Assembly (NCBI RefSeq): GCF_030463535.1
Contig: NC_132881.1
Span: 2,765,526-2,829,525, forward strand
Reading direction: 5' to 3'
Origin: Salminus brasiliensis
Taxonomy: Eukaryota > Chordata > Actinopteri > Characiformes > Bryconidae
DNA length: 64,000 bases
Below, in pieces: positions 32,150 through 64,000 of this stretch. The notes beneath the pieces are model-generated. The model was not told the origin of the DNA and made no database searches. It worked only from the letters and a program-made list of their open reading frames with translations. A program made the translations under genes and the position numbers. Each line of letters opens with the position of its first letter. The first letter of the stretch is position 1.

Positions 32150-34693
<2,544 letters not shown>

Positions 34694-35377: not shown

Positions 35378-36445
35378 GTACATAGACAGATAGACAGACC
35401 TAGGGATAGACAGACCGATAGCTAGACAGACAGACAGATGTACAGGAAGACAGACAGACAGATAGCTAGATAGACAGACAGATATACAGGAAGACAGACA
35501 GACAGATAGCTAGATAGACAGATATACATACAGCTAGATAAACAGACAGACAGACAGACCTAGGGATAGATAGACCAATAGCTAGATAGACAAACAGATA
35601 GATAGATCGATAGACAGAAAGTTTGATAGATAGATAGACAGACAGACAGATAGACAGACAGATAGATAGATAGACAGACAGACCTAGGCATAGATAGATA
35701 GACAGATAGACAGACAGACAGATAGATAGACAGACAGATATATAGACAGATAGACAGACAGATAGATAGACAGACAGATAGACAGATAGATAGACAGACA
35801 GATAGATAGACAGACCTAGGGATAGATAGACAGATAGATAAATATATAGACAGACAGACAGATAGACAGACAGATAGACAGACAGACAGATAGACAGACA
35901 GATAGATAGACAGACCTAGGCATAGATAGAAAGACAGATAGATAGACAGACAGATAGATAGACAGACAGATAGATAGACAGACAGATAGATAAACATACA
36001 GACAGATAGACAGACAGACAGATAGAAAGACAGACAGATAGATAGACAGACAGATAGATAGACAGACCTAGGCATAGATAGAAAGACAGATAGATAGACA
36101 GACAGATAGACAGACAGATAGAGAGACAGACAGATAGAAAGACAGACAGATAGATAGACAGACAGACCTAGGGATAGATAGACAGACAGATAGATAAATA
36201 GATAGACAGACAGATAGACAGATAGATAGACAGACAGATAGATAAATAGATAGACAGACAGATAGACAGATAGATAGACAGACAGATAGACAGATAGATA
36301 GACAGACAGATAGATAGACAGACAGATAGATAAATAGATAGACAGACAGATAGACAGATAGATAGACAGACAGATAGATAAATAGATAGACAGACAGATA
36401 GACAGATAGATAGACAGACATATAGATAGACAGACAGACAGACAG
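35378..36445. repeat. GATA/GACA (Bkm-type) array, 1.07 kb
   Basis: Interspersed GATA and GACA tetramers form mostly GATAGATAGACAGACA-type blocks. Seven variant segments gacctaggg/catag start at 35397, 35557, 35681, 35813, 35913, 36065 and 36165. All spacings (160, 124, 132, 100, 152, 100) are multiples of four, so the register never breaks. The array sits in the probable first intron of the sertad4-like gene. The long minus-strand open frames over it, rich in YLSVCLS, are an artefact of the repeat. Confidence 0.97.
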
Positions 36446-36529
36446 TTAACTAAACTAACTAACTAACTAATTAACTAATGATCCTGAACCGTCGATCTTG
36501 GCCTGTTATTAAAGAGGTGTAGGCTATAT

Positions 36530-44655: not shown

Positions 44656-44969
44656 CTAAGCCTCCAGGAGCATGTGCCAGCGGCAGACCTGCTGGTTGCC
44701 GCTCTCCTTCATGTCCTGCCAGTGCAGCGCCTCCTCCTCGCCGCTGCTGTTCTGGCCCAGTGCCAGCCAGCCGATCATCTCCTTGCGCTTCATGTTGCGG
44801 CGGTTGTAGACGGCCACCATGAGGGTGACGTCGGAGAGCTGGAAGAGCGCCACCTGGAAGACGAAGGTCTCCTTGAAGACGGGGTTGGGCTGCCCGCGCC
44901 GCACCGACGTCTTGCAGCGAGAGATCTCCTGACCCATGGAGTTCAGCAGGGTCAGCTTGCCGTACGTGT
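44656..44969 (-). CDS. syt16: syt16 last exon (C2B domain)
   Basis: Acceptor cacctctcag|ACACGTAC, then [20 protein letters not shown] to the C-terminus [12 protein letters not shown] and stop. Tryptophan and the LLE(A/S) end match the family. Confidence 0.93.
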
Positions 44970-47900
44970 CTGAGAGGTGCGAGAGGACAGAGAATCAGGG
45001 CATGCTGCTGACGAGAACATACAAGGCCTACCTGTGAACCGTGCTAATTACCTGGCGGCCGGTTGAGTGCTAGGTTGCGAAAGTGGCTTCCTTTAATAAC
45101 CTCCACAGACAGGCGGCCAGTAGTGGCGTTGTAGGCCAAACCCAACAGCAGCTCAGGAACTCCACCGTGAGACAGAGACTGACTGGAGGAAGCGCTGTCA
45201 CTCTGAGCACTCAGAGACACCTGAGAGTCTATAGCCTAGAGAGAGAGAAAGAGAGAGAGAGAGGGGGTTTCTAATAAAGTGACCAGAGAGTGGAAGCACA
45301 AGATAGGGGTTTCTAATAAAGTGGCCAGTGAGTGGAGGCACAAGGGAGGGGGTTCTAATAAAGTGACCAGTGCTTCTACTCACAAGGTTGGTGTTTCTAA
45401 TAAAGTGGCCAGATAGTGGATTCACAAGGTAGAGGTTTCCAATAAAGTGTCCAGTGAGTGGAAGCACAATGTGTTTCTAATAAAGTGGCCAGTGAGTGGA
45501 AGCACAAGGCAGGGGTTTCTATTAAAAGTGGCCAGTGCTTCTACTCACAAGGTAGGGGTTTCCAATAAAGTGGCCAGTAAGTAAAAACACAATGTAGGGG
45601 TTTCTAATAAAGTGGCCAGAGAGTAGGCATACAAGCCAGGGGGTTCCAAAATAGTGGCCAGAGAGTGGAAGCACCAAGTAGGGTTTTCCAATAAAGTGGC
45701 CAGTAAGTAGAAGCAAAAGGCAGGTGTTCTAATAAGGTGGCAAAAAGTACAAAGTAGGGGTTTCAAATAATGTGGCCATTGAGTAGAGATTTCTAATAAA
45801 TTGGCCAATTTTGTTAATTTAACATGTTAATTTTCCTAATGACGTAGGTATTTCTGATAAAGTGGACGCCTCCTCATACCTTCAGATTGCTGCGAGGTTC
45901 TAGCACCAGCGTTGCCTCCATCTGTCCTGCGTCAGTGCTGAGTTTGCTGAGCCTGTAGATGGTCTCACCCATCATTCTCTCTCTGTTCATCTTGCCCAGA
46001 GCGTACAGACGGAAGCGCAGAGCTGATGACCCGAGCTCCGCCGGCTCCAGCCGTGAGAACCGGAACGTCTCCCCGAACCGAGGCGCCGAGCCTTTTTGCA
46101 CCGCCGTCTTGTAGCGCTGCCGTTTCCCTGGCAACAGAGCCACGTGCACCTGCCACGAGTCCATGCCGCTCCGCCCCTTGTCGGGAATTCCCTGGGCCAT
46201 TACCACTGTTACTAGGAGTTTGAAGGTCTCGGGCCGGTAGTCGAGGACGATGATTAGGTCGCCGCATTTGGAGATGGGGAGGCGGGGCGAGGCGCTGGCG
46301 GGGCGGGACAGAGAACTTCTGCTACCTGCACGTTCCTGCTGATTTTCAAACATACACACAGAGGACAACTCATAAATATTCATGGCAATTTAATGCAAAG
46401 CAGCTATACAGTATAACACTGATAAACGCTTTCCAAAAGTATCCAGACACCTTCTCTTCCAAAGTTTCTCCAAATGGCAGAAGATTCTCCTGCAAGCCTA
46501 GCAAGTTCCTCTACCCTCCTATGGTGTTCTATCACCCTCAACCCATCCCAAAGATGGAGCTTCATCCTTTTTACTCATCCCAAACATTTTTACTGGAGCT
46601 TCATTCCTTCCACTAATCCCAAAGATGTTAAATCTATGATGCTCTGGTACCCTTTTTTCATCCCTAAGGTGTTCCATAGAGCTTTGTCCTTTCAACTCAT
46701 CCCAAAGTTTTTTTAGTGGAGTTCAACTCATCCCATAGGTGTTCAATTGAGTTTTATGATTCCAACTTATCCCCAAGGTGTTCAATGGAGTTCCTTCGCA
46801 CCAACTGATACCAAAGAGGTTCAGCTTTGTCATTTCAACTCATCCCAAAGATGTTCAGTGGAGATTAATCACTTCTACCTATCCCGAAATGTATATTTAT
46901 TCAATGTTGCTGTATCACCCCTACTCATCCCACAAGTGTTCAAAGGAATTCCATCGCACCAACTCATCCCAAAGAAGTTCAGTGGAGCTTCATCCTTTCA
47001 GCGCACTCCACAGATGTTTAAAAGAGCTTTGTCTTTTCAACTCATCCCAAAGATTTTCAGCAGAGTTTCATCAGTTCAACTTATCCCAAAACATATTCAT
47101 ATCACTCCTACTCATCCCACACGGGTTTAATGGAGTTCCATCGCACCAACTGACCCCAAAGACGTTCAGCTTCGTCATTTCAACTCATCCCCAAGCTTTT
47201 CAGGGGAGTTTCATCACTTCAACTCATCCCACAAGTGTTTAATTGAGTTTCATGATTCCAACTTATCCCCAAAGTGTTCAATGGAGTCCCATGACTCCAC
47301 TCATCCCAAAGATGTTTAGTGGAGATTAATCACTTCTACATATCCCAAAGCTTATTCATTCAATGGTGCTACATCACCCCTACTCATCCCACAAGTGTTC
47401 AACTGAGTTCCATCAAACCAACTCAGCCCAAAGAGGTTCAGCTTTGTTCTTTCAACTCCTCCCAAAGATTTTCAGGGGAGTTCAATCACTTCAACTCATC
47501 CCATAGATGTTCAATTTAGTTTATTGATTCCAACTTATCCCCAAGGTGTTCAATTGAGTTACATGACTCCACTCACTCCAGAGTTGTTCATTGGAGCGTC
47601 ATCCTTTCTACTCATCCCAAAGATGTTAAGCGGAGCTTAATCACTTTGACTTATTCGAAAACGCATTCATTTAATGGTGCTGTGTCACCCCTACTCATCC
47701 CACAAGTGTTCCATCACTACTGCAACTTATCCCAAAGATGTTAAGTGGAGCTTCACCCCCACCCCTAGCCTTCAGTAGGTGTAGTACATGCTTGCAAATG
47801 CGTGCACACACACACACATACACACACAACCCACACACACACACACTTCAGTACCTCAGGGCTCCAAGTAGAGGAGCTGTCTGTGGCCTCATTGTCATAA

Positions 47901-50900
47901 CCTTGGTTATCCAGCGCCATGTCCATCTCCAGACTAGGCAGGGGAGTCTGCTGCCTCTCCTCTCTATAAAGGGCGTCCGACCCATCCCCTGTGTCCTGTG
48001 AGCCCATGGAGGCCGTGTCCCCTCTCACGGACAGAGGGTCACTCAGAGGATCAGTGGGAGCTGAGTGTCGCTGGATGAGTGTCCGGGACAGGGGGTCCCT
48101 CTCCTTTTGCTGAGACCCTTCACGACTTCGGCAGGACAGAGGGTCCTGGAAGCTCTGTCTGCTCACCCGGTCAGCTTCTGTGAGAAGACATGGGTCAGAT
48201 ATATGCTTGAAATTACTCTTATATGATGCTAAGTGTCCAAAAGTATTCAGACATCACTTCTAATGAGGGAATGTAGCTACTTTTATGTGTAGCCCTCTCA
48301 GTTGCCTCTCAGTCTGACTGATGGAAACGTAGCACACATTCTTCTACAGTGAGTTTCTTCCTGTTTAGACACAGATGGAGATCGGAAACGGAACTGCGCT
48401 GCACAACAAATGTATTCCAGTCAATTCTATTCTTCAAGGCGGCCTTGGCAAACTGCTTGCACAAACATTTTTTTGTGTTACCAGTCCACCTCATGCAACA
48501 TGCTCCCTGCTCTCTTCCCCAGATTTCTGTTGCTGGCCTACAGAGCCAAAAAATAGGCCAGCCCCCCACTACCTGATGGCTATGGTCACTATCTGATCCG
48601 TACCAAAGAGCCCTTAAAGCTTTGAGTGTGGCTTGGCTGGACTCACCATCCTTCGAGACGTATAGAAGACAAGCAAGCATCTCCACTTTCCATTTACTAT
48701 ATGGACAAAAGTATTGGGACACCCTTATTTTTATTGAGTTCATCTTTTTTTGGAGCTTTTGTTGGAGTAACTGTCTCTACTATCCAGCGAAGAAGGCTTT
48801 TTACTAGATGTTGGAGGAGCATTTCTGTGAGGATTTGATTGCACAAGTGTTGGGATGGAGCACCACCATCATTTCAGAGAACATAGTTCTCCACTACTCA
48901 ATAGCTTGAGGCTCTTGGGCAACATGGTGCCAATAGGTTCATGTTTATCTGCTCCAGAGAGTCCTATTCTATTGGCAGTATTTAATTTGCACATCTGTGT
49001 CAGCAACGGCTGCCACCTACAGCGGAAGATTGCATTCATTAGAAGGGTTGTCCACAAAAGGGTTGCTATTCACACCAGCTAGGGATATCTTCTGAGCGAA
49101 CAGTGAAGCACCTTTGGATAAGAGCGTCCGATAAATGGCACAAACGTAAACGTGAACGTAAATACGCAGCCCACGCCTCCTCAGCAGCATTATGGATTAT
49201 TGTGAGCTGGATTCTGTGACCATTGTGGGCTGAAGTGACACTTCTTGAACCTTAAGCAGGTCCACGAGTAAACTGGCTGAATGGAAGCCGCTGGCAAGGC
49301 TGCATTTTCTATGAATGGAAGCTCCATTAAGGAATAAAATGTTCCATTTCTTCCATTTCATCATCGTGGAACTACTCTGTTGCCATGACAACCCAAGGTG
49401 AAGATAAGTTCCGCCATGGTAACAGAACATGGCAACAGTCTCCAAAATAAAATTCTCATAATATCGGGCTGCCTTTCAAATCAATCTTCCTGTTTTCTGT
49501 AGGAAAGGAACTGGGGAGTCAGCTGTTGTTTTGCTGGAGGGGGGGGGGGGGGTCTCAAAATACAGGGGACATATAGACCACTAGGGCATCCCAGAATGCC
49601 TTGCAAAGCAAATCAGCAATTGCAAATTTACTGGTGGAATTCACTGGCTGGGTACTTTATTAGAAACACGACGACTAACACTTGGTGGGGTCTCCCAAAT
49701 CTTTATGGCATGGATTCCACAAGATATTCTGGTCCATGCTAGCATGATCCATGCGTCCCACAATTCCTGCAGATGCTGGGAATCTCTGATTCTACCACAT
49801 TCCGAAGATGTTCTACTGCTCTACGTATGCTGGAGAGATGATGGTAAAGATGCTAAACTGTGGTCGTGAAGGGATGCACATGGTCAGTAACAATATTCAA
49901 CTAGGCTGTGGCATTTAAGCGATGAATGGCTTGTATAGGAGGTCACAAAAAGGCCAACAATCACTTTTGAGGAGCTGCAGAGTTCAGTGACCAAGACTGG
50001 ATTGAAGGTGCACCAGTCAACAATATCAAAAGCTCTGCACACAACTGGCCTGCATGGTGCAAAGCTAACACTGCCCATTCCTCAACAACCAGCATCCAGA
50101 AATATGGTGGGGAACGACGACCCAGGCAAGTGTGTACAGAGCAATCGATGCTGCAGCTGACCTCTACAATAAACACCTTCCATCACCTAATACTGCTGTC
50201 CAACGCCCAGATCTGATTCTGACTTTGAAGGGGGTTGAATACTTTAGGGCTTTAGACTGCATAAGTCAACCACAAATACGCCCACAGATTGCTTTACCTC
50301 CAGGACGGATTTTCCAAATGACTCAAGGTTCTTGGACATTGCCAGACATCTGGGACTGTGCTGAAAGGTTTCGTCCCTCGCTCAGAGCACTTTTTTTTTG
50401 CAGACTCATGGTTTTTCTTTGAGGCCAGAGGAGTCTTCCTTCCTCTTGTAGACCACATCTGAGTAATCTCAGAGGATCTCAGGGTTCTCAGAGAGGTCTA
50501 TGAGCATTTTGGGGGGGTTTGCTCGTGGGCTGAAATTGGCGATCGGTTTAAAAGATGATGGAGCTATGGTAACTGTTTCTCCTGCTGTGGACATCTAAAT
50601 TTAGATTAGCTCTTCGTAAATTGCTTGATACATGCCAGAGACATCGGCACATGTTCTCCTGAAGTCCTCGGAGAACTCTGAGGATCTGTTACCTCTCACA
50701 TGCTTATAACCCATCTACTCATTTTAATGTGAAACTGGCCCTTTCACTGGCTCACATTGGCTTGCACCTGGTTGTGGTGTGGCTGGTGCTCATCATCATC
50801 ATCATTATCATCTGCAGAAAATAATAAAGCTGTGGAAAAAGGTGCTGTCCTGTAATGGCACAAAAACAAATCTGTGTGTGTGTGTGTGTGTGTATGCATG

Positions 50901-53900
50901 CATGTATATGTGTGTACCTTCGCAGTCTGAAGGCTCAGTGCTGCCCTCCTCCTGGTCCGGCAGGAGTCGCTTGAACTTGTGGTGTCGACTGGGTGCGCTC
51001 TGGGCCTCGACCTCCGCAACCCCGGAGCGGAAGCTTTGCGAGCGAGAGACGGAGATTTCGAAGCGCTTCGCGATCTCGTCCTCGCTGTCCGAGGAGCTGG
51101 TCACCTCACCATCATCTCCGTAACTGTTCACTAAACACACACCCACACACACACAGACAGGAAACGTTGGGGAAGAGGCCAAAACAGAGGGATTTGAGGT
51201 CATTCAGGTACGTTTACATGGAAAAGAGGCAATGGGCTGATAAGGGTGGAGAAGAGGTGGAGGAGATCGAGCAAGAGACAGAGAGAGAAATATTAATAGA
51301 TATAAATAACTTTAAATAATATGAATAATATATATACATATAACATTATAATAAAATATGAATAAAAAGAAAGCATTATATATACATATATATATATATA
51401 ACAATCAATTTCTGCATTCATTTCCTTTACTCTTCTTTAACCATCATTTGATAGAACCACTTGTGTGCTTAGGGTCATTGTCTTGCTGCATGGCCCATGC
51501 TCTTCAGAGATTCAGCTCACGGACAGATATCCTGACGTTGTCCTGGCTGGTAAAATTCATAATTAAAAATAATTCATTGTTCCATCAACGATGGCACAAA
51601 GCCGTCCTGGCCCAGATGCAGCAAAACAGGCTCAAACCATGATAATACCACCACCATGTTTCACAGATGGGATGAGGCTTTTTAGGCTGGAATGCCGTGT
51701 TCTTACCTATTACTTCAGGGTTTTTTTTTGTGACCTTGTGGACTATTACACACTCGCTCTTGGCGTGATATTTGTTGGTCGAACACTCCATTTGTACACA
51801 ACCTTTCTGACTGTGGATTGCTGGAGGTCCATCCCTGTTCTTTCAATCAAACAGGCCACCCTCTCACACCTAATGATCGCCCCATTGATGGATTCAAACA
51901 CCTGACTCTAATTTCACATTCTTCGAATGATCTGCTTATCCTAAAAGTCCACATACTTTTGCCACTCGTTGTTCTGCCTGTAATCATGGATCATTTTCCT
52001 CGATTAATTAAAAAGCATGTCTAATATTTATGTCTCATTTGTTTGATTTGGTTCTTCTCAGATACTTTTAGGACTTGTGGGTCAAACTTATGCAGAAATG
52101 TAGAAGATTCTAAAGGATTCACAAAGTTTCAAGAACCATACAGCACAAGCTCTCTCTATATATATATATACTGGATATGTTATGTGGGACTGATGTACAT
52201 AACTGAAGGACTTCGAGGAAGGATCCTCCACAGTTTACAAGTATACAAATATATTTATATTATATTTATATATTTTTTTTTATTTTTTTGTTTTTCATGC
52301 TGTATTGTCACTTCACCTTCTATACATGCACACACATACCCACCCACCAAACAAACCGAATACACCCAAGTGGCTCTGCATTGAGCAGCAGCGGTCACCA
52401 TGGTTACCTGTTCCTCACACTCAAGTGTTTTTTTGCCTGCGTCCTTCTCTTTTTACCGCGCAAATGTTCGGTTGCCGCGGCAACCCTTCCCCTGCGCCCA
52501 CTGGCTGAGTGGCCGCTGACTGATTGGTGAAAGCACCACCTTCATCTTCCTTTGACCGGCTTCCTCAAGAGCCTTTTAAAACAAGCGCTGCTATAAGCCT
52601 TGCACTCCAGCCCAGGCTTCTTAGCATGTACAGAAACGAGGAGGGAGTGTGTGTGTGTGTGTGTGTGTGTGTTGCTGGCACAGTGCTTCTGGACACACTC
52701 CCTTTAATAGAGGACACACTGTAAACATGCAGCTTCAGCAAAACCTGACCACAGAACCCATGGACAGCGCAACGTCTCTCAAAAGTGGAGCACCCACCCC
52801 TCTAGCGCCTCTGCTGGCCGGTTGCAGGTTTCATGTGTAGGGGGTAGGCGGGCCTAGCAATTGAGTAGGCGAGTCTGGTAGCAAATTTGACCACAATTGC
52901 GGACAGCTTTGGCTCTCTTGGGGATCCCAAGTGGTATCCCTTGTGATGCCACAGCCGTCCAGCGAGCACCATTCATAACTATGTGCATAGAGGTCCTCCC
53001 TCTCCCCCCTACCCCCAATTCTGGCCCTACCCTCAACACTCCTCCGATACATGGACACCAGCCGATGAACACCAGCTAACAGAGTGACGAGGAGAGAGAG
53101 CGCCACCTGGTGAGAGAGAAAGAGAGAGAGAGCACGGCCAGTTGTGCTCTCTTAGACTTTGGCTGCTGATGGCAACGCGGCACCCCTCGCCATAGCATCA
53201 GCACATCAGACCGCTGAGCCTACCTTGTCCTCCATCTGTAATAAAGCAGAGTGGTGGATGTGGTGGATGACCAATGGCGAGCTTTGAAAACAGGGCTGGC
53301 TGTTTTTATTGCCCGGCTGATAAAGATATTGATTACTGAACCCAATCAGCTCACCCAGGAAGCTGTGTGATGTGTTTGTGTGTGTATCCACGATTCCCGA
53401 GAGCTGTGCTGTGTGTTGTTCCATGCTGGAGTGCTGCTCCCTTTCGAGCCCTGACTCTTCACGACAAGGAGGAAAGTGCTTATTTTGAGTCCTCAGCACC
53501 TTAAAAGAGAGCTGGACGCGGTCTGAGCCGGCTGAGGGAGGTATGTGGAGGTGTATTTATGACTACTGAGTGTTTGTTAGCTACCTTAGCCTGGTAGCTC
53601 CAGCGCTAAACTGAAGGAGCCAAAATTTGGATGAAATTTGGAGAAATATAGGTGTTACAGCAAGTAGCTGAGCACGTAGCCCAGATTCATACTGGTTTAA
53701 CTGTATGTTTAACTCTGGTTTAACTTTTTTTACTAACAGACTGTACATACTACCCACACTGCTAATTCATACTGGAGTAAACTCACTAGACAGATGTTAC
53801 GATCAGATTGTACAAACTGCAAGCTTAGCGCAGATTCATACTGGATTCAAATCAGTCCACAGTTATTGCTATCAGGCTGTAGAACTTACATGCACTGTAA

Positions 53901-54963: not shown

Positions 54964-56665
54964 CACAGAGATTGATACTGAACTGTAAAAACTATCCACT
55001 GCAAATCCATACTGGATTAAACTCACTGATCTCATGAACAATCACATACACTATATAGACAAAAGTATTGGGACACCTGCTCCTTCATTGTTTCTTCTGA
55101 AATCAAGAGTATTAAAAAGAGCAGATCCTGCTGGCCACTTTTTGTTGACCAATATGACCAGCAAGATCAGCATGGTCACTTTTGTTGACCAGAATGACCA
55201 GCATAACCAAACTGTTTGACCAGCATGACCACCACAGACCAAGTTGGTTGACCAACATGGCCACTCTGGCTGACCAGCATGGCCAAGCAGGACCAAAATT
55301 AAATGGAACATACACTATGCTGGCCAAGAGCTGGTTGACCAGCCTATGTACCCTGTATACCCTTTATGTTTTCACTTAGACGACCAGCTTTTCAACCACC
55401 TTGACCATCAAACCCATGGGTGGGTTCTCACCAGTGCTGCTGCAGGGCGAACCAGAACCGCCTCTTTTACTCTCCAGCTCCTCTGCCTCTTCATTTATGG
55501 GCGTCAGGCGCTCCAAAGGACCGGGTTCAGACCCACTACCCAGGCCTCGCAGTGCCAGCTGGTCCTTCAGAGCCCAGAGCCTCTCCTCAGGATCCATAGA
55601 TGCGGTATCGAGGTGAGATCCGCCCTCTGCTGTGACCTCGGCATGGTCCGACTTGGGGATAGAGGCCGGTTTGGGCCCAAGACTTAGAAAAGAGTCTTTT
55701 ATGGCGTCGGAGAACTGAGAGAACCAGGCGGAGATCGCTGCAGCTCCTGATGGAGAGGAGTCGGTCATCTTGGGCAATTCTCAGTGACCAAAACCTGAGC
55801 TGTGTCCCAAATCAAGCACTTCTGTAGCGCACTAGCTACTTCTGTACTGAGCGATTCTTGCGGTGTGAGGATTTTTACAACCAGGCAAAGTTAAGGCTAG
55901 CTTTAGCTAGCTAATATGAGCTAACGGAGAGCCTGAAAGAATCCTGGGGTGCGTCCCAATTGCATGCTAATCACTAATAACAACTAAGTAGTATAAATAC
56001 AATTGCCCAAGTGGAGTACACTTAAATATCCAAGATGCTCAGAACTGGTCCGTTTTTGAGTGTGGCTACGATGGACACTGTTCTCCCACAATGCAATGTG
56101 CAACGGAAAGTGAGGAGCTACGCACATCTAGAAACGGCATTCGGAAAAAATGGCGGCTAGCAATGAAGCGCCTGTCGGACGGCGGCTGGAGAACTTGCAG
56201 TGACGTATGTTGGCATAGCGACGCTTCATCGTTTCCTGTTGGTAGTAAATAGGTCGGGACGTTACTATTCTGTGTGCTAACCCTCTAAACCTGCACTGTT
56301 TAAGATTAGTACATAGTCCATACCTTATAGTATTAGTGTGTAGTATGCAATTGGGACGCAGCCCAGGTCTTCCACACTGCTGTACACTCCCCCTAGCAGT
56401 TGTTAGCGATACCTAGCGATAACTAGTGATGACCACCTCCGTCCATGGCTGTAATCACACCAGTCCCTAGGTTTCGTGAAGCTGAAGCTGGGAGATGACG
56501 CTCGTAAGGTGTTCCGGAGAGAGTGATGGATGTATTCCAGACGCTGGCTAACGCACTAACTACCTGACTGACTGACGGGCTGGATGACTGACTGGGTGCT
56601 ATTTGCTAAGGGAGGTGCACAGGCTAGAAATACCACAGCAGGGCACTTCCCTCTCTTTACACAGA

Positions 56666-56698
<33 letters not shown>

Positions 56699-57788
56699 GC
56701 ACTACGTAACCCGTGACAGAGTTTCAGGTTTCAACACTGTGTGAGTTTGCGTCTGACATGGCAATCAAGCTGGCAATGTCCAGCTGTAAGAGCTCAAAGC
56801 AGGACACCCGTACCTTTAATAATGACTGGATGATGTGGTTTCTGCCACTGCGGGACAGAAGTACGTTAGCATAGCGCTGCTTTAGCTTAGCGTTAGCTCA
56901 GAGCTAGCAACGGCAGACGGCTCCCAGAGCAGCAGGTAAAGAGTGAGCCAAGGGTGCACGTATTTGTGTCCTCCGCATTTTACCCATCTGTGGTAGTGAA
57001 CACACACACACACACTAGTGAACAGGGGGAAAGTGAGCACACACACACACACACCCAGAACGGTGGGAGGGTGAGCAGAGAGGGTGAAGGGCCTTGCTCA
57101 AGAGTGCCCAACAGTGGCAGCTTGCTGAGCCCGGGTATCGAACCCACACCCCTCTGACATCAACAGCCCGGAGCTCGAAACCGCTGAGCCTACTTGAAGC
57201 CACCCCTTCCCCAGACACAACATCCTAACCTCGGGAGACGTCCTAAGAGTGTGTCCTAAAAGGTCTAACTCACCCATTTCCTCCCCAATTTGGGCCGTCA
57301 ATTACCCAACCTGCATATCAATGATTGCTAATGGAAATAACAGATAAATAAAAATGTAAAAATGAATGAAAATAAAAATAAATAAATAAAGTAACTTAAT
57401 AAAATAAATTAAAATAATAATAATGAAAAGGCTGATTTGGGTCAGGGATTTTAAAATATGAGAGGTGATCACGCTGAAATACATAAAACATTAATGATTA
57501 ATTAAATTTCGGCGAGGTCATGCTCGCGATCTCTCACATGATCTTTTGCACTTATTATAAACCGCACGGCCAGGCTTCAACTGCACATACAGGACAGGCA
57601 GGCCAGCTCACCCAGGCCCTGGTGGACGCCGGCCCGGTCTTTGCGCTTGCGTCGGCCGGAATGCTCGAAGCAGGGCAGCCCCCCCACGCGGGCGAAACAC
57701 AGCTTCTTGTTGATGAAGAGGAAGAGGATGGCCAGCAGCACCACGAAGACGCCGACGGCAGAGAGGAAGCCGATGGCCTCGGGCGTGA
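44656..57788 (-). CDS. syt16: Synaptotagmin-16-like protein (SYT14/16 group)
   Basis: Five shared exons (50918-51130, 47855-48177, 45880-46335, 45052-45235, 44656-44969) follow one of two upstream exons: 55432-55768, giving a complete 608-aa protein, or 57612-57788, a membrane-anchor exon whose start exon is not seen. All phases fit. Two C2 domains are clear: C2A ([33 protein letters not shown]) and C2B ([59 protein letters not shown]). The loop aspartates that bind Ca2+ in classical synaptotagmins are absent, as known for Syt14 and Syt16, so Ca2+-independent membrane traffic is the likely role. I prefer syt16 over syt14 because of VLEPRSN, SLSHGG and DTYGKL, and because wdr89 and sgpp1 are near. 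Syt14 is the alternative. Confidence 0.85.
45052..45235 (-). CDS. syt16: syt16 exon, C2A-C2B linker and start of C2B
   Basis: Acceptor ctctctctctag|GCTATAG, donor CCGCCAG|gtaatt (phases 0 and 1). It reads [18 protein letters not shown], then [20 protein letters not shown] and [13 protein letters not shown]. Confidence 0.92.
45255..45862. repeat. ~41-bp minisatellite filling a syt16 intron
   Basis: About 14 copies of a unit built of gtttctaataaagtggccag, tgagtggaagcacaagg and a short G-rich end. The intron is 644 bp (45236-45879), so nearly all of it is this array. The core taataaagtgg(c/a)cag resembles the end of a fish DNA element; its reverse (ctttattagaaaca) starts a segment at 49652. Confidence 0.93.
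45880..46335 (-). CDS. syt16: syt16 exon with C2A domain
   Basis: Acceptor aaaatcagcag|GAACG and donor CTGAAG|gtatga, both phase 0, 152 codons. It holds the entire C2A domain, from [20 protein letters not shown] to [10 protein letters not shown]. Where a classical C2A has D-x-D in loop 3, this has A-L-G-K-M. Confidence 0.92.
46460..47760. repeat. ~40-bp minisatellite filling a syt16 intron
   Basis: Degenerate units of the type ctcatcccaaagatgttcag, tggagttcatcacttcaa, unit length about 37-45 bases, roughly 30 copies. It fills most of the 1519-bp intron 46336-47854. A piece at 46432-46456 (tccaaaagtatccagacacc) resembles the end of the Tc1-type MITE family. Confidence 0.92.
47855..48177 (-). 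CDS. syt16: syt16 exon (DPLS-repeat linker)
   Basis: Acceptor tcttctcacag|AAGCTG and donor CCTGAG|gtactg. Disordered linker, rich in Ser, Asp and Gln, with four DPLS motifs in a row of about 35 residues. This repeat is not a feature I know from the family. Confidence 0.85.
48232..48290. mobile_element. MITE terminal fragment
   Basis: tgtccaaaagtattcagaca followed by cttctaatgagggaatgtag matches the second end of the MITE family (compare 60135-60185 and, reversed, 3125-3203). Only this terminus is present. Confidence 0.55.
48345..48690 (+). mobile_element. Decayed L2-type LINE fragment
   Basis: ggctggactcaccatccttcg and gaagacaagcaagcatctcc correspond to the start of the 18435 LINE piece. 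The preceding 250 bases probably belong to the same insertion, with broken frames. Confidence 0.4.
48696..49000. mobile_element. Tc1-type MITE copy C, inserted within LINE debris
   Basis: The left end ctatatggacaaaagtattg is clear; the right end aatttgcacatctgtg is a degraded terminus. Interior parts shared with copy B are gtgaggatttgattgca, ggagcaccaccatcattt and gtcctattctattggcag. LINE-like sequence lies on both sides (48345-48690 and 49086-49155). Confidence 0.65.
49086..49155 (+). mobile_element. L2-type LINE 3' tail
   Basis: cctttggataagagcgtccg, then ataaatggcac and an (aacgt)n-like end; this matches the tail at 18755-18805. Confidence 0.55.
49379..49392. promoter_or_regulatory. RFX X-box-like site
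   Basis: GTTGCCATGACAAC fits the X-box consensus GTNRCC-N(0-3)-RGYAAC with one mismatch. It is in a syt16 intron. Function is not shown. Confidence 0.3.
49646..50145 (+). pseudogene. Tc1-like transposase remnant
   Basis: At 49945-50100 the plus strand reads [13 protein letters not shown] and then [16 protein letters not shown], the middle of a Tc1/mariner transposase (helix-turn-helix to linker). The surrounding frame is interrupted by stops and the catalytic DDE part is not recognisable. The preceding part (49652 onward) starts with tactttattagaaacac, an element end that shares sequence with the 45.3 kb minisatellite. Confidence 0.6.
50918..51130 (-). CDS. syt16: syt16 shared exon (linker)
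   Basis: Acceptor tgtgtgtttag|TGAACAG and donor TGCGAAG|gtacac (phases 1 and 1). It encodes [18 protein letters not shown] and a serine/basic linker. Both upstream exons join it with a split valine codon. Confidence 0.88.
51445..52005. mobile_element. Non-autonomous Tc1/hAT-like DNA element
   Basis: A set of phrases widespread in fish DNA elements is present in order: gggtcattgtcttgctgcat, ataataccaccaccatgttt, ctgactctaatttcacattc and ccacatacttttgccactcg. There are no intact terminal repeats and no transposase frame. Confidence 0.55.
52394..52407. promoter_or_regulatory. RFX X-box-like site (one mismatch)
   Basis: GTCACCATGGTTAC, part of a palindrome GGTCACCATGGTTACC, lies 64 bases from the perfect site at 52471. 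Confidence 0.35.
52471..52484. promoter_or_regulatory. Perfect palindromic RFX X-box motif
   Basis: GTTGCCGCGGCAAC is a perfect match to the RFX dimer consensus, in a locally GC-rich patch (52440-52520) of an otherwise AT-rich syt16 intron. It could mark an intronic enhancer or promoter. Confidence 0.45.
52647..52671. repeat. (GT)n microsatellite
   Basis: About 12 GT units, in the syt16 intron. Confidence 0.9.
52735..52925. repeat. Dispersed repeat, second copy of the 43.6-44.2 kb sequence
   Basis: See 43635-44170 for shared phrases. The minus-strand frame across it has no motif and is not a gene. Confidence 0.55.
53670..54540. repeat. ~67-bp tandem repeat
   Basis: About 13 units organised as actgtaaattcatactggat, taaaatcactccacagttat and tgctatcaggctgtaa. 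Spacing of the attcatactgg core is about 64-84 bases. A detached unit lies at 54965-55030. It occupies a syt16 intron. Confidence 0.92.
54626..54674. repeat. (GT)n microsatellite
   Basis: About 24 perfect GT units, adjoining further GT/CA runs at 54775 and 54880-54960. Confidence 0.95.
55048..55130. mobile_element. Left end of the Tc1-type MITE
   Basis: cactatatagacaaaagtat followed by tgggacacctgctccttcat and ttcttctgaaatcaagagta. Only the left 80 bases are present, then a tandem array begins. Confidence 0.65.
55125..55350. repeat. GACCAGCATGACCA-type tandem repeat
   Basis: Irregular 9-20 bp units of tgaccagcatgacca with ttgttgacc and ctggttgacc variants. The right end lies 80 bp from the donor of the alternative syt16 exon. 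Confidence 0.85.
55432..55768 (-). CDS. syt16: syt16 alternative first coding exon (soluble N-terminus)
   Basis: Opens with ATG (context ccaagATGA, A at -3) and reads [19 protein letters not shown] on for 112 codons, ending ACTG|gtgaga in phase 1. That is the phase needed to join 50918-51130. Residues 12-30 can form an amphipathic helix (I12, W15, F16, F19, I23, F27, L30 on one face), and the remainder is acidic and serine-rich. No membrane segment is present. It could also be an internal exon after the anchor exon (a weak acceptor cactgag would keep frame), but a first exon is more likely. Confidence 0.7.
55769..55943 (-). promoter_or_regulatory. syt16: Possible promoter of the soluble syt16 form
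   Basis: The 175 bases between the alternative ATG and the MITE include a TAGC-rich block (aaggctagctttagctagct, 55892-55911) like those ahead of sgpp1 and wdr89. No TATA box is evident. Confidence 0.3.
55944..56366. mobile_element. MITE with 25-bp termini (tgcgtcccaattgcat)
   Basis: The left end ctggggtgcgtcccaattgc and right end gcaattgggacgcagcccag form inverted repeats with two mismatches. The length is 423 bp. The interior has CpG-containing sequence (gcctgtcggacggcggctgg). It lies 176 bp upstream of the alternative syt16 start. Confidence 0.75.
56667..56696. repeat. (GT)n microsatellite
   Basis: About 15 GT units. Confidence 0.95.
56955..57220 (-). mobile_element. tRNA-derived SINE
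   Basis: On the minus strand a B box GGTTCGATACC (57134-57144) follows an A-box-like ggctcagcggtttcgagctc region, then caagctgccactgttgggca and a tail ending in a (GT)n-interrupted segment and atgggtaaaatgcggagg. It shares its middle with 27700-27730. No complete cloverleaf with proper anticodon stem is formed. Confidence 0.65.
57225..57605. other. AT-rich intron DNA beside the anchor exon
   Basis: Contains degenerate (AAAT)n between 57345 and 57425. No exon is seen. Confidence 0.4.
57612..57788 (-). CDS. syt16: syt16 upstream exon encoding a transmembrane helix
   Basis: Acceptor ctctcccccgcag|TCACGCC and donor GGCCTGG|gtgagc, entering and leaving in phase 1. It reads [13 protein letters not shown] and on through a ~21-residue hydrophobic helix to [13 protein letters not shown], then a basic cytosolic stretch (GRRKRKDR). 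It closely matches the anchor region of SYT14. It needs an upstream exon with the ATG, which I do not find; it may lie in 57.8-64 kb or beyond the window. Confidence 0.85.
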
Positions 57789-58085
57789 CTGCGGGGGAGA
57801 GAGGACACACAGAGACACACGGATCAGACCACGCTGCCATGCAACCTCAACACACACACACACACACGCACACACACATAGACACATAGACACATAGACA
57901 GATACACACACAAACAGAGCGAGCAGGACTTTAGTAAATAAAGCAGCTCATTTTATTAGGAAATACGAAGAAATAAGAAATGCTAATATATGCTAATTCA
58001 GGCCATTTTTATTGGTCTGTTTGCGTTGAAGATTCAGACAAACAAACAAACAAACAAACAAAAAGGATATACAAGGTTTTTGATC

Positions 58086-58134: not shown

Positions 58135-60125
58135 ATATACCACAGAATAAGCATTTCGTCTCTGTCCAATGAAAAACTGGTATCTCCAAAATGCTGAATT
58201 TACAGGACAGGGGAAAACCTGGTAACTGTCAATGGAAAACGATTTCATTCGGGAGGATTTCTATTGGTCCATTGGAGATACGGCCCCTGAGTGGTCCAGC
58301 AGAATAAGGCCCTGTCACTATGACCATAGGACCACCGGTTGTATTTAATGTTATATTTAATATACACTTTTTTTTAATCCAGTTTAATCAGAGTTAGTTA
58401 GCTAGCTAGCTAAATGCTCTAAAAAGGTCAGATGCTCAGGTCTGTGAGTGTCAAATCGCATCAAAACTGCAACGTAAAACCCCGAACCCCCCCGTAAACC
58501 CCCCGTAAACCCCACCCAAGTCAGTAACAGTGCCGGTGAGGTACTGCGTACTTCCATCCTACGGCCTCGTACGTAGTTCCAGCAATATTCCGCTAGTTGG
58601 ACACAATTTTAAAACATTTCAGGTGTTTGACCGTCCGTTACTTTAGCGTTTTACTCCGAATCTAACCAAGATATGTCCCCCTTTTTCCCTCCCAGGTTAA
58701 CATTAGCATTGTTAGCATTGCCCCAGGCTAACACTGTTAGCAAAACCAGTTGGTAACTACGCCTCCAAACCATAGAAACACGTCCACAGACAGGCTCTGG
58801 ACAGTGCCGTGGGTACGACTGACCTAATGAGACCCAGCCAGAGCGAAGTGCTGATAAGTGCTGTGTTATTCTGAGGGCAGCACTAGCATGCACAACGCTA
58901 ACAGCAGGCAAAATTAGCGTCAGCGCTGGAAAAACAGCAACATCTGAGGTAAAGTTTTAGTTGAGGTAACTTTTTTTAGTGTAGCACGGCACGCTAAAGG
59001 CTAAAGCAGCCTAGTAAAGTCAACCGCTTGTTTTTCTTCATGAATACATGCTAATAATCTCTCTAGCCCTGGAGCTCCAGCGCTAAACGGCAAAAGAAGC
59101 ACAACTCGGACAGGAAACGCGCCTTGGCCGATCAAATACATCTCGGGAAACCTAAAATCATGTGAATTTCATTTCATTTCTCCCTTCAGGCCAAACTGCA
59201 GTGAGCGTCAGCTGGGAACGCAGCAGGGCTGAATGCTATTAGCAGTGAATGGGTGCTGGAGAGCCGGGCTAATACAGCCTTATGCAAGAGCACAGTGAAG
59301 GGCCCTTCAAGCGCCATTTCTACTCAACCACCCCCACCTCCACACACACAGAGCTCCTTACGTGGACACGTTGTGTGTGTGTGGGTGCTGATCTCACCTA
59401 GGCCTCTCCTCATACATACAGTATTAGCGGTAATAGCGTGCATGTGTGTTTGTGTGCCAGGGACACGGCGGGGGAGGAAAGCTGACGTGAATGCGTTTAG
59501 ATCATAAAGAGACGGCGAGAAGGAGTCCTGGAGCGCTGACAGGTCCTCCTGTGTGCGTCTCAGCGGCGCATTGATCTAGAGCCTGTGTAGGTGTGCGTTA
59601 GTGAGAGTGGGAGGGAAGAACAAGGCCCGAATCATCCCACGCGCCTCTACGAGCCTCAGGCTCCGGGTTCCCGCGAGAGAATCCAGCGTAAGGGACTGAA
59701 TCCCCTTTCAGCGGCCCCGCTTGACCCTGTGAAATCACCCCGGGGTGAGACGGACGGTCCTCGGAACCCTCGGAACCCTCGGAACCCACCGGAACTGGTC
59801 GCGAACTCGGCCCGGGCCTGCTGTCTGAAACGCAAACGTGCATCTATTAAAGAAGTGTGCAGGCTGTAAACACACGGATCGACCTGCTTACCCAGGCGTG
59901 CGCTGGCCCACAGAGCTCCTCTAGAACCGGTCAATACGAGCCCGAGCACAAACACACAGGCCCGAGTCCGAACACGGCCCGCTCAGGTACACGTGAAGAC
60001 GTGTAGGAAGGGCAGCGATGTTTACACTGGTGTGTTTGTTCAGATATATATAATTTCACATATATATATATATATTTTATTAATTATAATTTATGCTATA
60101 TAGACACATAATTTATTTATATATA
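58135..60125. other. Presumed first intron of the membrane-anchored syt16 form
   Basis: No exon recognised. A 9-bp (ctcggaacc) x3 repeat lies at 59759-59787. Several TAGC-rich tracts (58394-58412, 58695-58740) occur. The missing syt16 start exon could be here but I see no supported candidate. Confidence 0.35.
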
Positions 60126-61133: not shown

Positions 61134-61317
61134 TTTAAACTCTACTGAAGAAGGTGCTTGAAATGTGTTCATTTCCACATAAATAACATAACAGAATATT
61201 ACTATAGTTTATTATGTAATATTATAACTATGTATATAATAAAACTCGCTACTTGCGTATATTATTATTTCTATTTCTGTTGTTTTGTATCTGAGCCTGT
61301 TTAAATGTTCAGAGTAA

Positions 61318-63706
61318 CTGGAACAGTAGTAGTAGCACTAATAACAGGAGTAGTAGTAGTAATAACAGGAGTAGTAATAACAGTAGTAGTAGCACTAATA
61401 ACAGTAGTACTAGTAGTAATAACAGTAGTAGTAGCATTAATAACAGTAGTAGTAGCAGCACTAATTACAGGAGTAGTAATAACAGTAGTAGTAGCACTAA
61501 TAACAGGAGTAGTAATAACAGTAGTAGTAATAACAGTAGTAGTAGCACTAATAACATAAGTAGTAATAACAGTAGTAGTAGCACTAATTACAGTAGTAGT
61601 AATAACAGTAGTAGTAGCACTAATAACACAAGTTGCAATAACAGTAGTAGTAGCACTAATTACAGTAGTAGTAGTAGCACTAATAACAAGTAGTAATAAC
61701 AGTAGTAGTAGCACTAATTACAGTAGTAGTAGTAGCACTAATAACAAGTAGTAATAACAGTAGTAGTAGCACTAATTACAGTAGTAGTAGTAGCACTAAT
61801 GACAGTAGTTTTAATAGCACTAATAACAAGTAGTAATAACAGTAGTAGTAGCACTAATGACAGTAGTTTTAATAGCACTAATAACAAGTAGTAATAACAG
61901 TAGTAGTAGCACTAATGACAGTAGTAGTAATAGCACTAATAACATAAGTTGCAATAACAGTAGTAGTAGCAGCACTAATAACAGTATTAGTAATAACAGT
62001 AGTAGTAGTAGCACTAATAACAGTATTAGTAATAACAGTTGTAGTAGTAGCACTAATAACAGTATTAGTAATAACAGTTGTAGTAATGATAGTAGTAGCA
62101 GCAGTACTAATAACAGTAACAGTAGTAGCACTAATAGTTGTGGTAATAACAGTAGTAATAGCAGCACTAATAACAGTAGTAGTAATAACAGTAGTAGTAG
62201 CACTAATTACAGTAGTAATAATAACAGTAGTAGTAGCAGCAGCAGTAATGTCAGCGTTAGCAGTAATGTCAGCAGTAGCAGTAATGTCAGCAGTAGCAGC
62301 AGCAGTAATGTCAGCAGTAGCAGTAATGTCAGCAGTAGCAGTAATGTCAGCAGTAATGTCAGCAGTAGCAGCAGCAGTAATGTTAGCAGTAGCAGTAATG
62401 TCAGCAGTAGCAGTAGCAGTAATGTCAGCAGTAGCAGTAATGTCAGCAGTAGCAGTAATGTCAGCAGTAGCAGCAGCAGTAATGTCAGCAGTAGCAGCAG
62501 CAGTAATGTCAGCAGTAGCAGTAATGTCAGCAGTAGCAGTAATGTCAGCAGTAATGTCAGCAGTAGCAGCAGCAGTAATGTCAGCAGTAGCAGTAATGTC
62601 AGCAGTAATGTCAGCAGTAGCAGTAATGTCAGCAGTAGCAGTAATGTCAGCAGTAATGTCAGCAGTAGCAGTAGCAGTAATGTCAGCAGTAGCAGTAATG
62701 TCAGCAGTAGCAGTAATGTCAGCAGTAATGTCAGCAGTAGCAGCAGCAGTAATGTCAGCAGCAGCAGTAATGTCAGCAGTAATGTCAGCAGTAGCAGTAA
62801 TGTCAGCAGTAGCAGTAGCAGTAATGTCAGCAGTAGCAGCAGCAGTAATGTCAGCAGTAGCAGTAGCAGTAATGTCAGCAGTAGCAGTAGCAGTAATGTC
62901 AGCAGCAGCAGTAATGTCAGCAGTAATGTCAGCAGTAGCAGTAGCAGTAATGTCAGCAGTAGCAGTAGCAGTAATGTCAGCAGCAGCAGTAATGTCAGCA
63001 GTAGCAGTAGCAGTAATGTCAGCAGTAGCAGCAGCAGTAATGTCAGCAGTAGCAGTAATGTTAGCAGTAGCAGTAGCAGTAATGTTAGCAGTAGCAGTAA
63101 TGTCAGCAGTAGCAGCAGCAGTAATGTCAGCAGTAGCAGCAGCAGTAATGTCAGCAGTAGCAGTAATGTCAGCAGTAATGTCAGCAGTAGCAGTAATGTC
63201 AGCAGTAGCAGTAATGTCAGCAGTAATGTCAGCAGTAGCAGTAATGTCAGCAGTAGCAGTAATGTCAGCAGTAATGTCAGCAGTAGCAGCAGCAGTAATG
63301 TCAGCAGTAGCAGCAGCAGTAATGTCAGCAGTAGCAGTAGCAGTAATGTCAGCAGTAGCAGTAATGTCAGCAGTAATGTCAGCAGTAGCAGTAGCAGTAA
63401 TGTCAGCAGTAGCAGTAGCAGTAATGTCAGCAGTAGCAGTAATGTCAGCAGTAGCAGTAGCAGTAATGTCAGCAGTAGCAGTAATGTCAGCAGTAGCAGT
63501 AGCAGTAGCAGTAATGTCAGCAGTAGCAGTAGCAGTAGCAGTAATGTCAGCAGTAGCAGTAGCAGTAATGTCAGCAGTAGCAGTAATGTCAGCAGTAGCA
63601 GTAGCAGTAGCAGTAATGTCAGCAGTAGCAGTAGCAGTAGCAGTAATGTCAGCAGTAGCAGTAGCAGTAGCAGTAATGTCAGCAGTAGCAGTAGCAGTGG
63701 CAGTGG
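61318..63706. repeat. 2.4-kb compound trinucleotide array
   Basis: The left half (to about 62240) mixes AGT, AGC, AAT and ACT triplets in ~36-bp modules such as aataacagtagtagtagcac. The right half is a chain of modules agcagtaatgtc (12), agcagtagcagtaatgtc (18), with 15- and 24-base versions, that differ by whole AGT/AGC steps. No stop arises in two plus-strand frames because of the triplet period, giving spurious proteins rich in NVSSSS or MSAVAV. The array is in the presumed first intron of syt16 or beyond its 5' end. Confidence 0.97.
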
Positions 63707-63709
63707 TGG

Positions 63710-64000
63710 TAGGATTTGATCAGAAAGCTGATTCTACAAAGGAAACAAGTCTCCACACTTCTGCAGTCTGAGGAAAGACTCCTTCCAGATTAGAGCAACG
63801 GCTCCACCTACTGACGGCTCCTTACCCAAGCGCTCTACTGCTCAGCAGATGGCCTACCAACAGTACTGCCGGAGACCCGGCTATCATACACTTGCCCCTT
63901 GGCAGCAGAAGAAGCACAAGTTCTATTTACTGCATTTATAATATAGGAGAAATGTCAAAATTACTTGTGTGTGAATGCAATCAAATTCTGACAGCTATTT
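63710..64000. other. Window end, nothing supported
   Basis: Unique-looking DNA after the array; no gene or repeat family recognised. Confidence 0.4.

Follow-up and report, generated by a model that had tools for sequence, protein, structure and literature searches.

Little is understood of SYT14 and SYT16, two synaptotagmins that act independently of calcium. A review (PMC9393329, in the text available) describes SYT16 as a protein without a transmembrane (TM) segment, citing Fukuda 2003. In the accessible sections of the survey by Craxton in 2010 (PMC2823689), vertebrate Syt16 proteins with and without TM are presented as separate alignments, mammalian Syt16 encodes a TM while TM-less variants are expressed too, TM-less N-terminal variants are given for Ciona and sea urchin Syt16 and for human SYT14, and Syt16 is treated as the parental gene of the Syt14/Syt16 pair. 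A peptide of human SYT16 (residues 132-147, KLPHVLSSIAEEEHHL) is, according to the available parts of PMC9398451 and PMC5586252, a PP2A-B56 ligand in vitro that binds B56-gamma1 at 0.6 uM as measured by ITC. Its tested motif lies at residues 137-142 of an isoform whose numbering is not specified in those parts, and it is called the strongest ProP-PD hit in PMC9398451.

The gene analyzed here, taken to be syt16, belongs to a ray-finned fish with a genome of 1.07 Gb in 103 contigs, and it lies on the minus strand of positions 2765526-2829525 of contig C4, a 64 kb stretch referred to as the window. The preliminary description of this DNA had proposed an anchor exon and an ATG exon, both ending in phase 1, and had both of them joining the same exon. 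These claims were reproduced, with both exons on the minus strand and in frame with the shared exon, in such a way that one gene with two alternative N-terminal exons is confirmed at the sequence level. The gene model consists of the following parts, in coordinates of the window:

57612..57788, minus strand: anchor exon, in phase 1 at both ends, coding for a transmembrane helix and a basic juxtamembrane stretch (from translation and hydropathy)
55432..55768, minus strand: alternative ATG (soluble) first exon, 112 codons plus 1 base, phase-1 donor (from coding score)
50918..51130, minus strand: shared exon to which either first exon would be joined, with SSSDSEDE as an acidic segment (from translation)
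47855..48177, minus strand: linker exon (from translation)
45880..46338, minus strand: C2A exon, with a NAGNAG acceptor that leaves a three-base ambiguity (from translation; two Pfam C2 stretches in the complete soluble reading)
45052..45235, minus strand: C2B exon, first part (from translation)
44656..44969, minus strand: C2B exon, second part, stop codon included (from translation; Pfam C2 at residues 484-590)

Exons, phases and frames can be read directly from the DNA, and the splice junctions between them are predicted. The anchor exon has 177 nt (acceptor CCCCCGCAG, donor G|GTGAGC) and the ATG exon 337 nt (donor CACTG|GTGAGA), and when translated either of them forms a G|TG valine codon with the shared exon. 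The maximum hydropathy over 19 residues was 3.07 in the anchor exon, while the soluble form reached 0.52 in its first 100 residues, and with the anchor exon in frame the gene would encode an N-terminal TM form of SYT16. The soluble reading has 609 residues and the anchored one 556 without its 5' piece. Two Pfam C2 stretches (E 6.8e-27) were detected in the soluble form, the tandem C2 arrangement of the SYT14/SYT16 group, and the nearest solved structures were those of synaptotagmins; the N-terminal parts of syt16 had no match in Pfam. We are confident that the syt16 gene of this fish has dual first exons.

The coding nature of the ATG exon was studied through codon usage. Frame 0 of the exon scored 0.316, a value reached by 0 of 2000 shuffles, with -0.05 and 0.02 in the other forward frames and 0.20 in the best reverse frame. 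In the first training set, a WD-repeat piece had brought in one stop codon, and a piece of the C2A region of the syt14 gene on contig C4, which spans an intron, another three; after retraining without the syt14 genes, the score was 0.283 and 0 of 1000 shuffles reached the value of the exon. When ATG frames of at least 112 codons followed by a phase-1 donor scoring at least 8.5 were searched for on both strands of the window, only two were found, the ATG exon of syt16 and the coding frame of the WD-repeat protein. An open frame arisen by chance, or a separate short gene, would agree with the lack of a Pfam family and with a genome search that gave no second copy of the exon at E<=10 (2 candidates scored). 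Against this stand the codon signal, the donor in phase and the coding exons that both paralogues described below have in the corresponding position, and such an origin seems to us very improbable. Contigs of bacterial and archaeal genomes were scanned as well, and no relatives of the exon were found. Matches among solved structures, to designed repeat proteins (E to 7e-10 with the whole sequence), were discarded as repeat artefacts, single stretches giving E above 100.

The ATG exon reads as a first exon because an in-frame TGA lies five codons ahead of its ATG (tga gaa ttg ccc aag ATG). Alternatively, the anchored transcript could include it optionally as an internal exon, entered through the acceptor CACTGAG|AATTGC (55779), in which case ELPK would be added before the ATG and an anchored protein carrying the B56 motif described below would be produced. 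The frame does work in that way (G + AA TTG CCC AAG ATG), and with a score of -4.7 this acceptor comes close to that of the shared exon (51130), which gets -4.4 in the same simple scoring; a score that cannot judge the shared exon is too weak for settling the exon type. On the other hand, the AG at 55779 is preceded by G and has no clear pyrimidine tract, all the other in-frame acceptors listed between 55794 and 56082 run into a stop, and close in-frame stops also precede both syt14 ATG exons. G is the rarest base before AG at acceptors. We consider the internal position improbable, also in its version with the motif on an anchored protein, and keep the reading as a first exon.

In order to know if this layout is particular to syt16, its closest relatives in the genome were located with the C2A sequence. 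Twelve matches were obtained: the gene itself, then loci on contigs C1 (E 3.9e-25) and C4 (9.2e-18), with the other nine at 2.4e-9 or weaker. The nearest loci were syt14 genes with the same exon layout, one at 1.15-1.18 Mb of C4, around 1.6 Mb from syt16, and the other at 68.65 Mb of C1. Both fit human SYT14 better than the gene of the window does (79% over 91 linker residues for C4 and 39% over 112 for C1, against 32% over 77), and because of this match we call the C4 gene syt14 and the C1 gene syt14-like. Their alternative exons are:

C4:1169224-: anchor exon of syt14, phase-1 donor
C4:1164491-1165508, minus strand: ATG exon of syt14, 339 codons, found by scanning the anchor intron (donor AAG|GTGAGG, score 11.1)
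C1:68661605-: anchor exon of syt14-like, phase-1 donor
C1:68658499-68659420, minus strand: ATG exon of syt14-like, 307 codons, found by scanning the anchor intron (donor AAG|GTGAGG, score 11.1)

The anchor exon of syt16 is 46% (54 residues) and 38% (42 residues) identical to those of the two paralogues, both of which have a lumenal exon further upstream. In the three genes the ATG exon sits inside the anchor intron, the six donors of anchor and ATG exons are all in phase 1, and the shared exon starts in phase 1, with acceptors CTCAG|AT in syt14 and CCCAG|AC in syt14-like. Over 448,000 bases (counted as bases times strands), only 7 ATG frames of at least 100 codons ended in such a donor; three are the ATG exons, another is the WD-repeat frame, a fifth runs into the lumenal exon of syt14, and two are left over. 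From these two unexplained frames, on which the rate rests, around 0.03 frames would be expected by chance per intron of 5-6.5 kb, and one was observed in each of the three introns.

The two syt14 ATG exons are homologous (MAFFK[NS]FQ...), with the same residue at 40 of 66 aligned codons, good conservation over the first 60 residues, and changes that are most frequent at third codon positions (35, against 23 at first and 9 at second positions). A search of the genome with 90 residues of the C4 exon gave two places only at E<=10, both of them syt14 ATG exons (4 candidates scored). Pfam had no match for any of the three ATG exons, and the syt14 N-terminus gave only chance matches against the PDB (best E 0.097). 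Alignment did not establish that the ATG exon of syt16 resembles those of syt14 in sequence, with shuffle fractions of 0.25, 0.18, 0.84 and 0.042 and an hhalign probability of 0.25%. The helical moments of the N-termini were high in all three ATG exons, being reached by 16, 5 and 32 of 1000 shuffles. Position, phase and amphipathic helix, and not sequence, suggest common descent of the syt16 ATG exon with those of syt14. We think it likely that the two-first-exon layout is shared with syt14 by descent; the pair of first exons probably goes back to the ancestor of SYT14/16, the soluble N-termini having diverged since.

The C2A exon of the C4 syt14 gene is split by a 155-base intron (C4:1158625-1158779, CAG|GTAGAG ... 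CTGACAG|GTGCAC), and syt16 and the C1 gene match the split region without a break. The neighbours of syt16 in the window are a WD-repeat frame, a PAP2-like frame that scored 21.7 bits, short of the Pfam cut-off of 27.2, and a third frame without match; we take the first two to be WDR89 and SGPP1 of human 14q23. A frame with a SERTA motif (Pfam E 1.6e-13) was detected at 32150-32665 of the window, on the minus strand, around 12 kb downstream of syt16. SERTAD4 adjoins SYT14 in human, and the SERTA frame near syt16 may be a retained duplicate neighbour; no SERTA match was found in the 60 kb around each syt14 gene. Two repeat regions were also observed, a very large block of simple repeats upstream of syt16 (window 61300-63720) with open frames longer than 600 codons on both strands, and long repeat-derived open frames made of ICLSVYLS units on the minus strand at 35466-36462.

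The preliminary description had further proposed that the soluble state of SYT16 derived from the loss of the anchor exon, and had suggested a search for this exon in mammalian SYT16. According to the accessible text of the survey (PMC2823689), the mammalian gene encodes the TM and expresses TM-less variants as well, and this, together with the layout common to both syt14 genes, contradicts the proposal. The early description of SYT16 without TM quoted in PMC9393329 speaks for a novelty acquired by anchor loss. Yet Syt16 proteins that include the TM have been published for vertebrates, and TM-less variants for Ciona and sea urchin (PMC2823689), the two syt14 genes of this genome have the same layout, and the syt16 anchor exon described here keeps an intact frame and good splice sites. 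Since both Syt16 forms are in the survey, anchor-exon loss is a poor account of the soluble protein, and we regard such an origin as highly unlikely. Having both forms looks ancestral instead, given the TM-less variants of the survey and the ATG exons that the syt14 genes have of their own.

The contents of the soluble exon were then analyzed, and two features were found in it:

55688..55741, minus strand: predicted amphipathic helix, residues 10-27, helical moment 0.553 (reached by 16 of 1000 shuffles)
55487..55507, minus strand: LTPINEE at residues 88-94 of the soluble form, a candidate PP2A-B56 docking motif of the LxxIxE type (rule from the accessible part of PMC5586252)

LTPINEE is the single occurrence of L..I.E in the soluble form and lies inside the exon specific to it, with none in the 556 anchored residues modelled. 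The rule given in the available text of PMC5586252 asks for L or I in the first and fourth positions, E in the sixth, and net acidic or S/T residues at 2, 7, 8 and 9; both LTPINEE and the human SYT16 peptide follow it with N = 3. This level was reached by 0.47% of the shuffles of the exon and 1.0% of those of the whole protein, and N of 1 or more by 2.5% and 7.2%, respectively; the plain L..I.E appeared in 3.7% of the exon shuffles and the loosest form in 23.5%. Around 520 residues separate the fish motif from the C-terminus. Human SYT16 has 645 residues, which would leave about 508 after its motif; the two distances fit the same region but prove nothing. When the human peptide was compared with the fish protein, ungapped and with flanks, LTPINEE was not picked out above chance, and the best place was elsewhere and itself at chance level. 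Orthology of the fish and human motifs is thus unproven.

The two first exons could be real and LTPINEE incidental, the soluble exon serving to leave out the anchor and perhaps to supply a lipid-binding helix. The high helical moments of the three ATG exons agree with this, as do the chance figures of 2.5-3.7% under plain rules in exon shuffles and the absence of the strict L..I.E from both syt14 ATG exons (the C4 exon has a loose LNSVSE). What counts against an incidental motif is that human SYT16 has an experimentally tested one of the same kind, in the accessible parts of the B56 papers. We hold the incidental motif to be a serious possibility, a little short of even chances, and we judge evenly balanced the proposal that in this fish B56 docking belongs to the soluble form alone. 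Among openly licensed papers, none was found linking the choice of SYT16 isoform with B56, and the available text of PMC4924639, PMC13069148 and PMC8164606 contains nothing on these exons.

Two promoters would be the simplest explanation for the two alternative N-terminal exons. Indirect signs of a separate start at the ATG exon are the in-frame stop ahead of its ATG and the CpG content. The candidate elements in the window are:

55801..56600: stretch of raised CpG content immediately 5' of the ATG exon, a weak sign and thereby a candidate promoter
59398..59443, minus strand: weak candidate 5' coding exon of the anchored form (MHAITANTVCMRRGL), phase-1 donor and poor start context, unproven

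The observed/expected CpG ratio was 0.71-0.88 in the bins of the first element, versus a mean of 0.46, and the 95% quantile of all bins (0.98) is above the stretch. Little weight is placed on CpG content because at the ATG exons of the syt14 paralogues the enrichment was weaker or none, with no clear bump. A CpG-rich stretch at 59.3-60.1 kb adjoins the candidate 5' exon and is a candidate for the upstream promoter of the anchored form. No 5' end for the anchored transcript could be located in the 46 kb upstream, where a search for short first exons with donors of at least 9 listed five, none of them convincing. A lumenal exon of the syt14 type (GGERSCGVHELICIRK in C4, GGRGCGVHELICVR in C1) was also looked for upstream of syt16, from 57.8 to 64 kb of the window and 40 kb beyond, with nothing convincing. 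A start of the anchor exon at an ATG at 57840 (MAAWSDPCVSVCPLSPA), back to which the frame is open, was rejected: a strong acceptor lies between this ATG and the exon, and for this reason the anchor exon is read as internal.

From these data we propose that transcripts from an upstream promoter would contain the anchor exon and encode a membrane-anchored tandem-C2 protein that would not recruit PP2A-B56. A second promoter inside the anchor intron, at around 55.8-56.6 kb, would start transcription at the ATG exon and give a soluble tandem-C2 protein, in which the helix and the C2 domains would touch membranes and the motif would bring PP2A-B56. The two-start switch would date from before the separation of SYT14 and SYT16, with the soluble N-termini diverging later. 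Promoters, transcripts and B56 binding are predictions made from the genome sequence. In general terms, two alternative first coding segments on one body, the soluble one adding B56 docking, is an explanation that we find probable. More tentatively, and with somewhat less than even confidence, the choice of first exon may act as a switch between an anchored C2 protein and a soluble carrier of PP2A-B56 to C2-bound membranes, in a layout older than the SYT14/SYT16 split. The choice between the promoters may then trade membrane anchoring for docking of the phosphatase. If both genes always had both starts, the notion that SYT16 is the soluble one would be a sampling effect, and experiments must name the form used. 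The strongest peptide hit of the B56 screen (PMC9398451, in its accessible part) would gain a concrete and testable context if only the soluble start carries the B56 motif.

The existence of anchored and soluble SYT16 is a phenomenon largely known already, and the observation made at this locus is real and had been read correctly at the sequence level. Skipping of the TM exon has reportedly been described in other synaptotagmins (Craxton and Goedert, 1999). There, as predicted for the fish gene, the presence of the anchor depends on transcript choice, but the exon is skipped, whereas in fish syt16 the anchor would be replaced by another coding exon. Within this fish, the syt14 ATG exons, of 307 and 339 codons, are around three times as long as that of syt16. 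The vertebrate Syt16 survey (PMC2823689) includes fish genomes and likewise has TM and TM-less N-termini, but the accessible text contains neither the B56 motif nor a comparison with Syt14 regarding a common intron; its human SYT14 variants resemble the present case in having a TM-less alternative N-terminus in the sister gene. The human SYT16 132-147 motif (PMC5586252 and PMC9398451, in the parts available) is similarly an LxxIxE followed by an acidic residue, and differs in flanks that cannot be aligned above chance and in that the position in a soluble-only exon is known for the fish only. What is new here is that all three genes share the same-intron layout and that the B56 motif is confined to the soluble exon.
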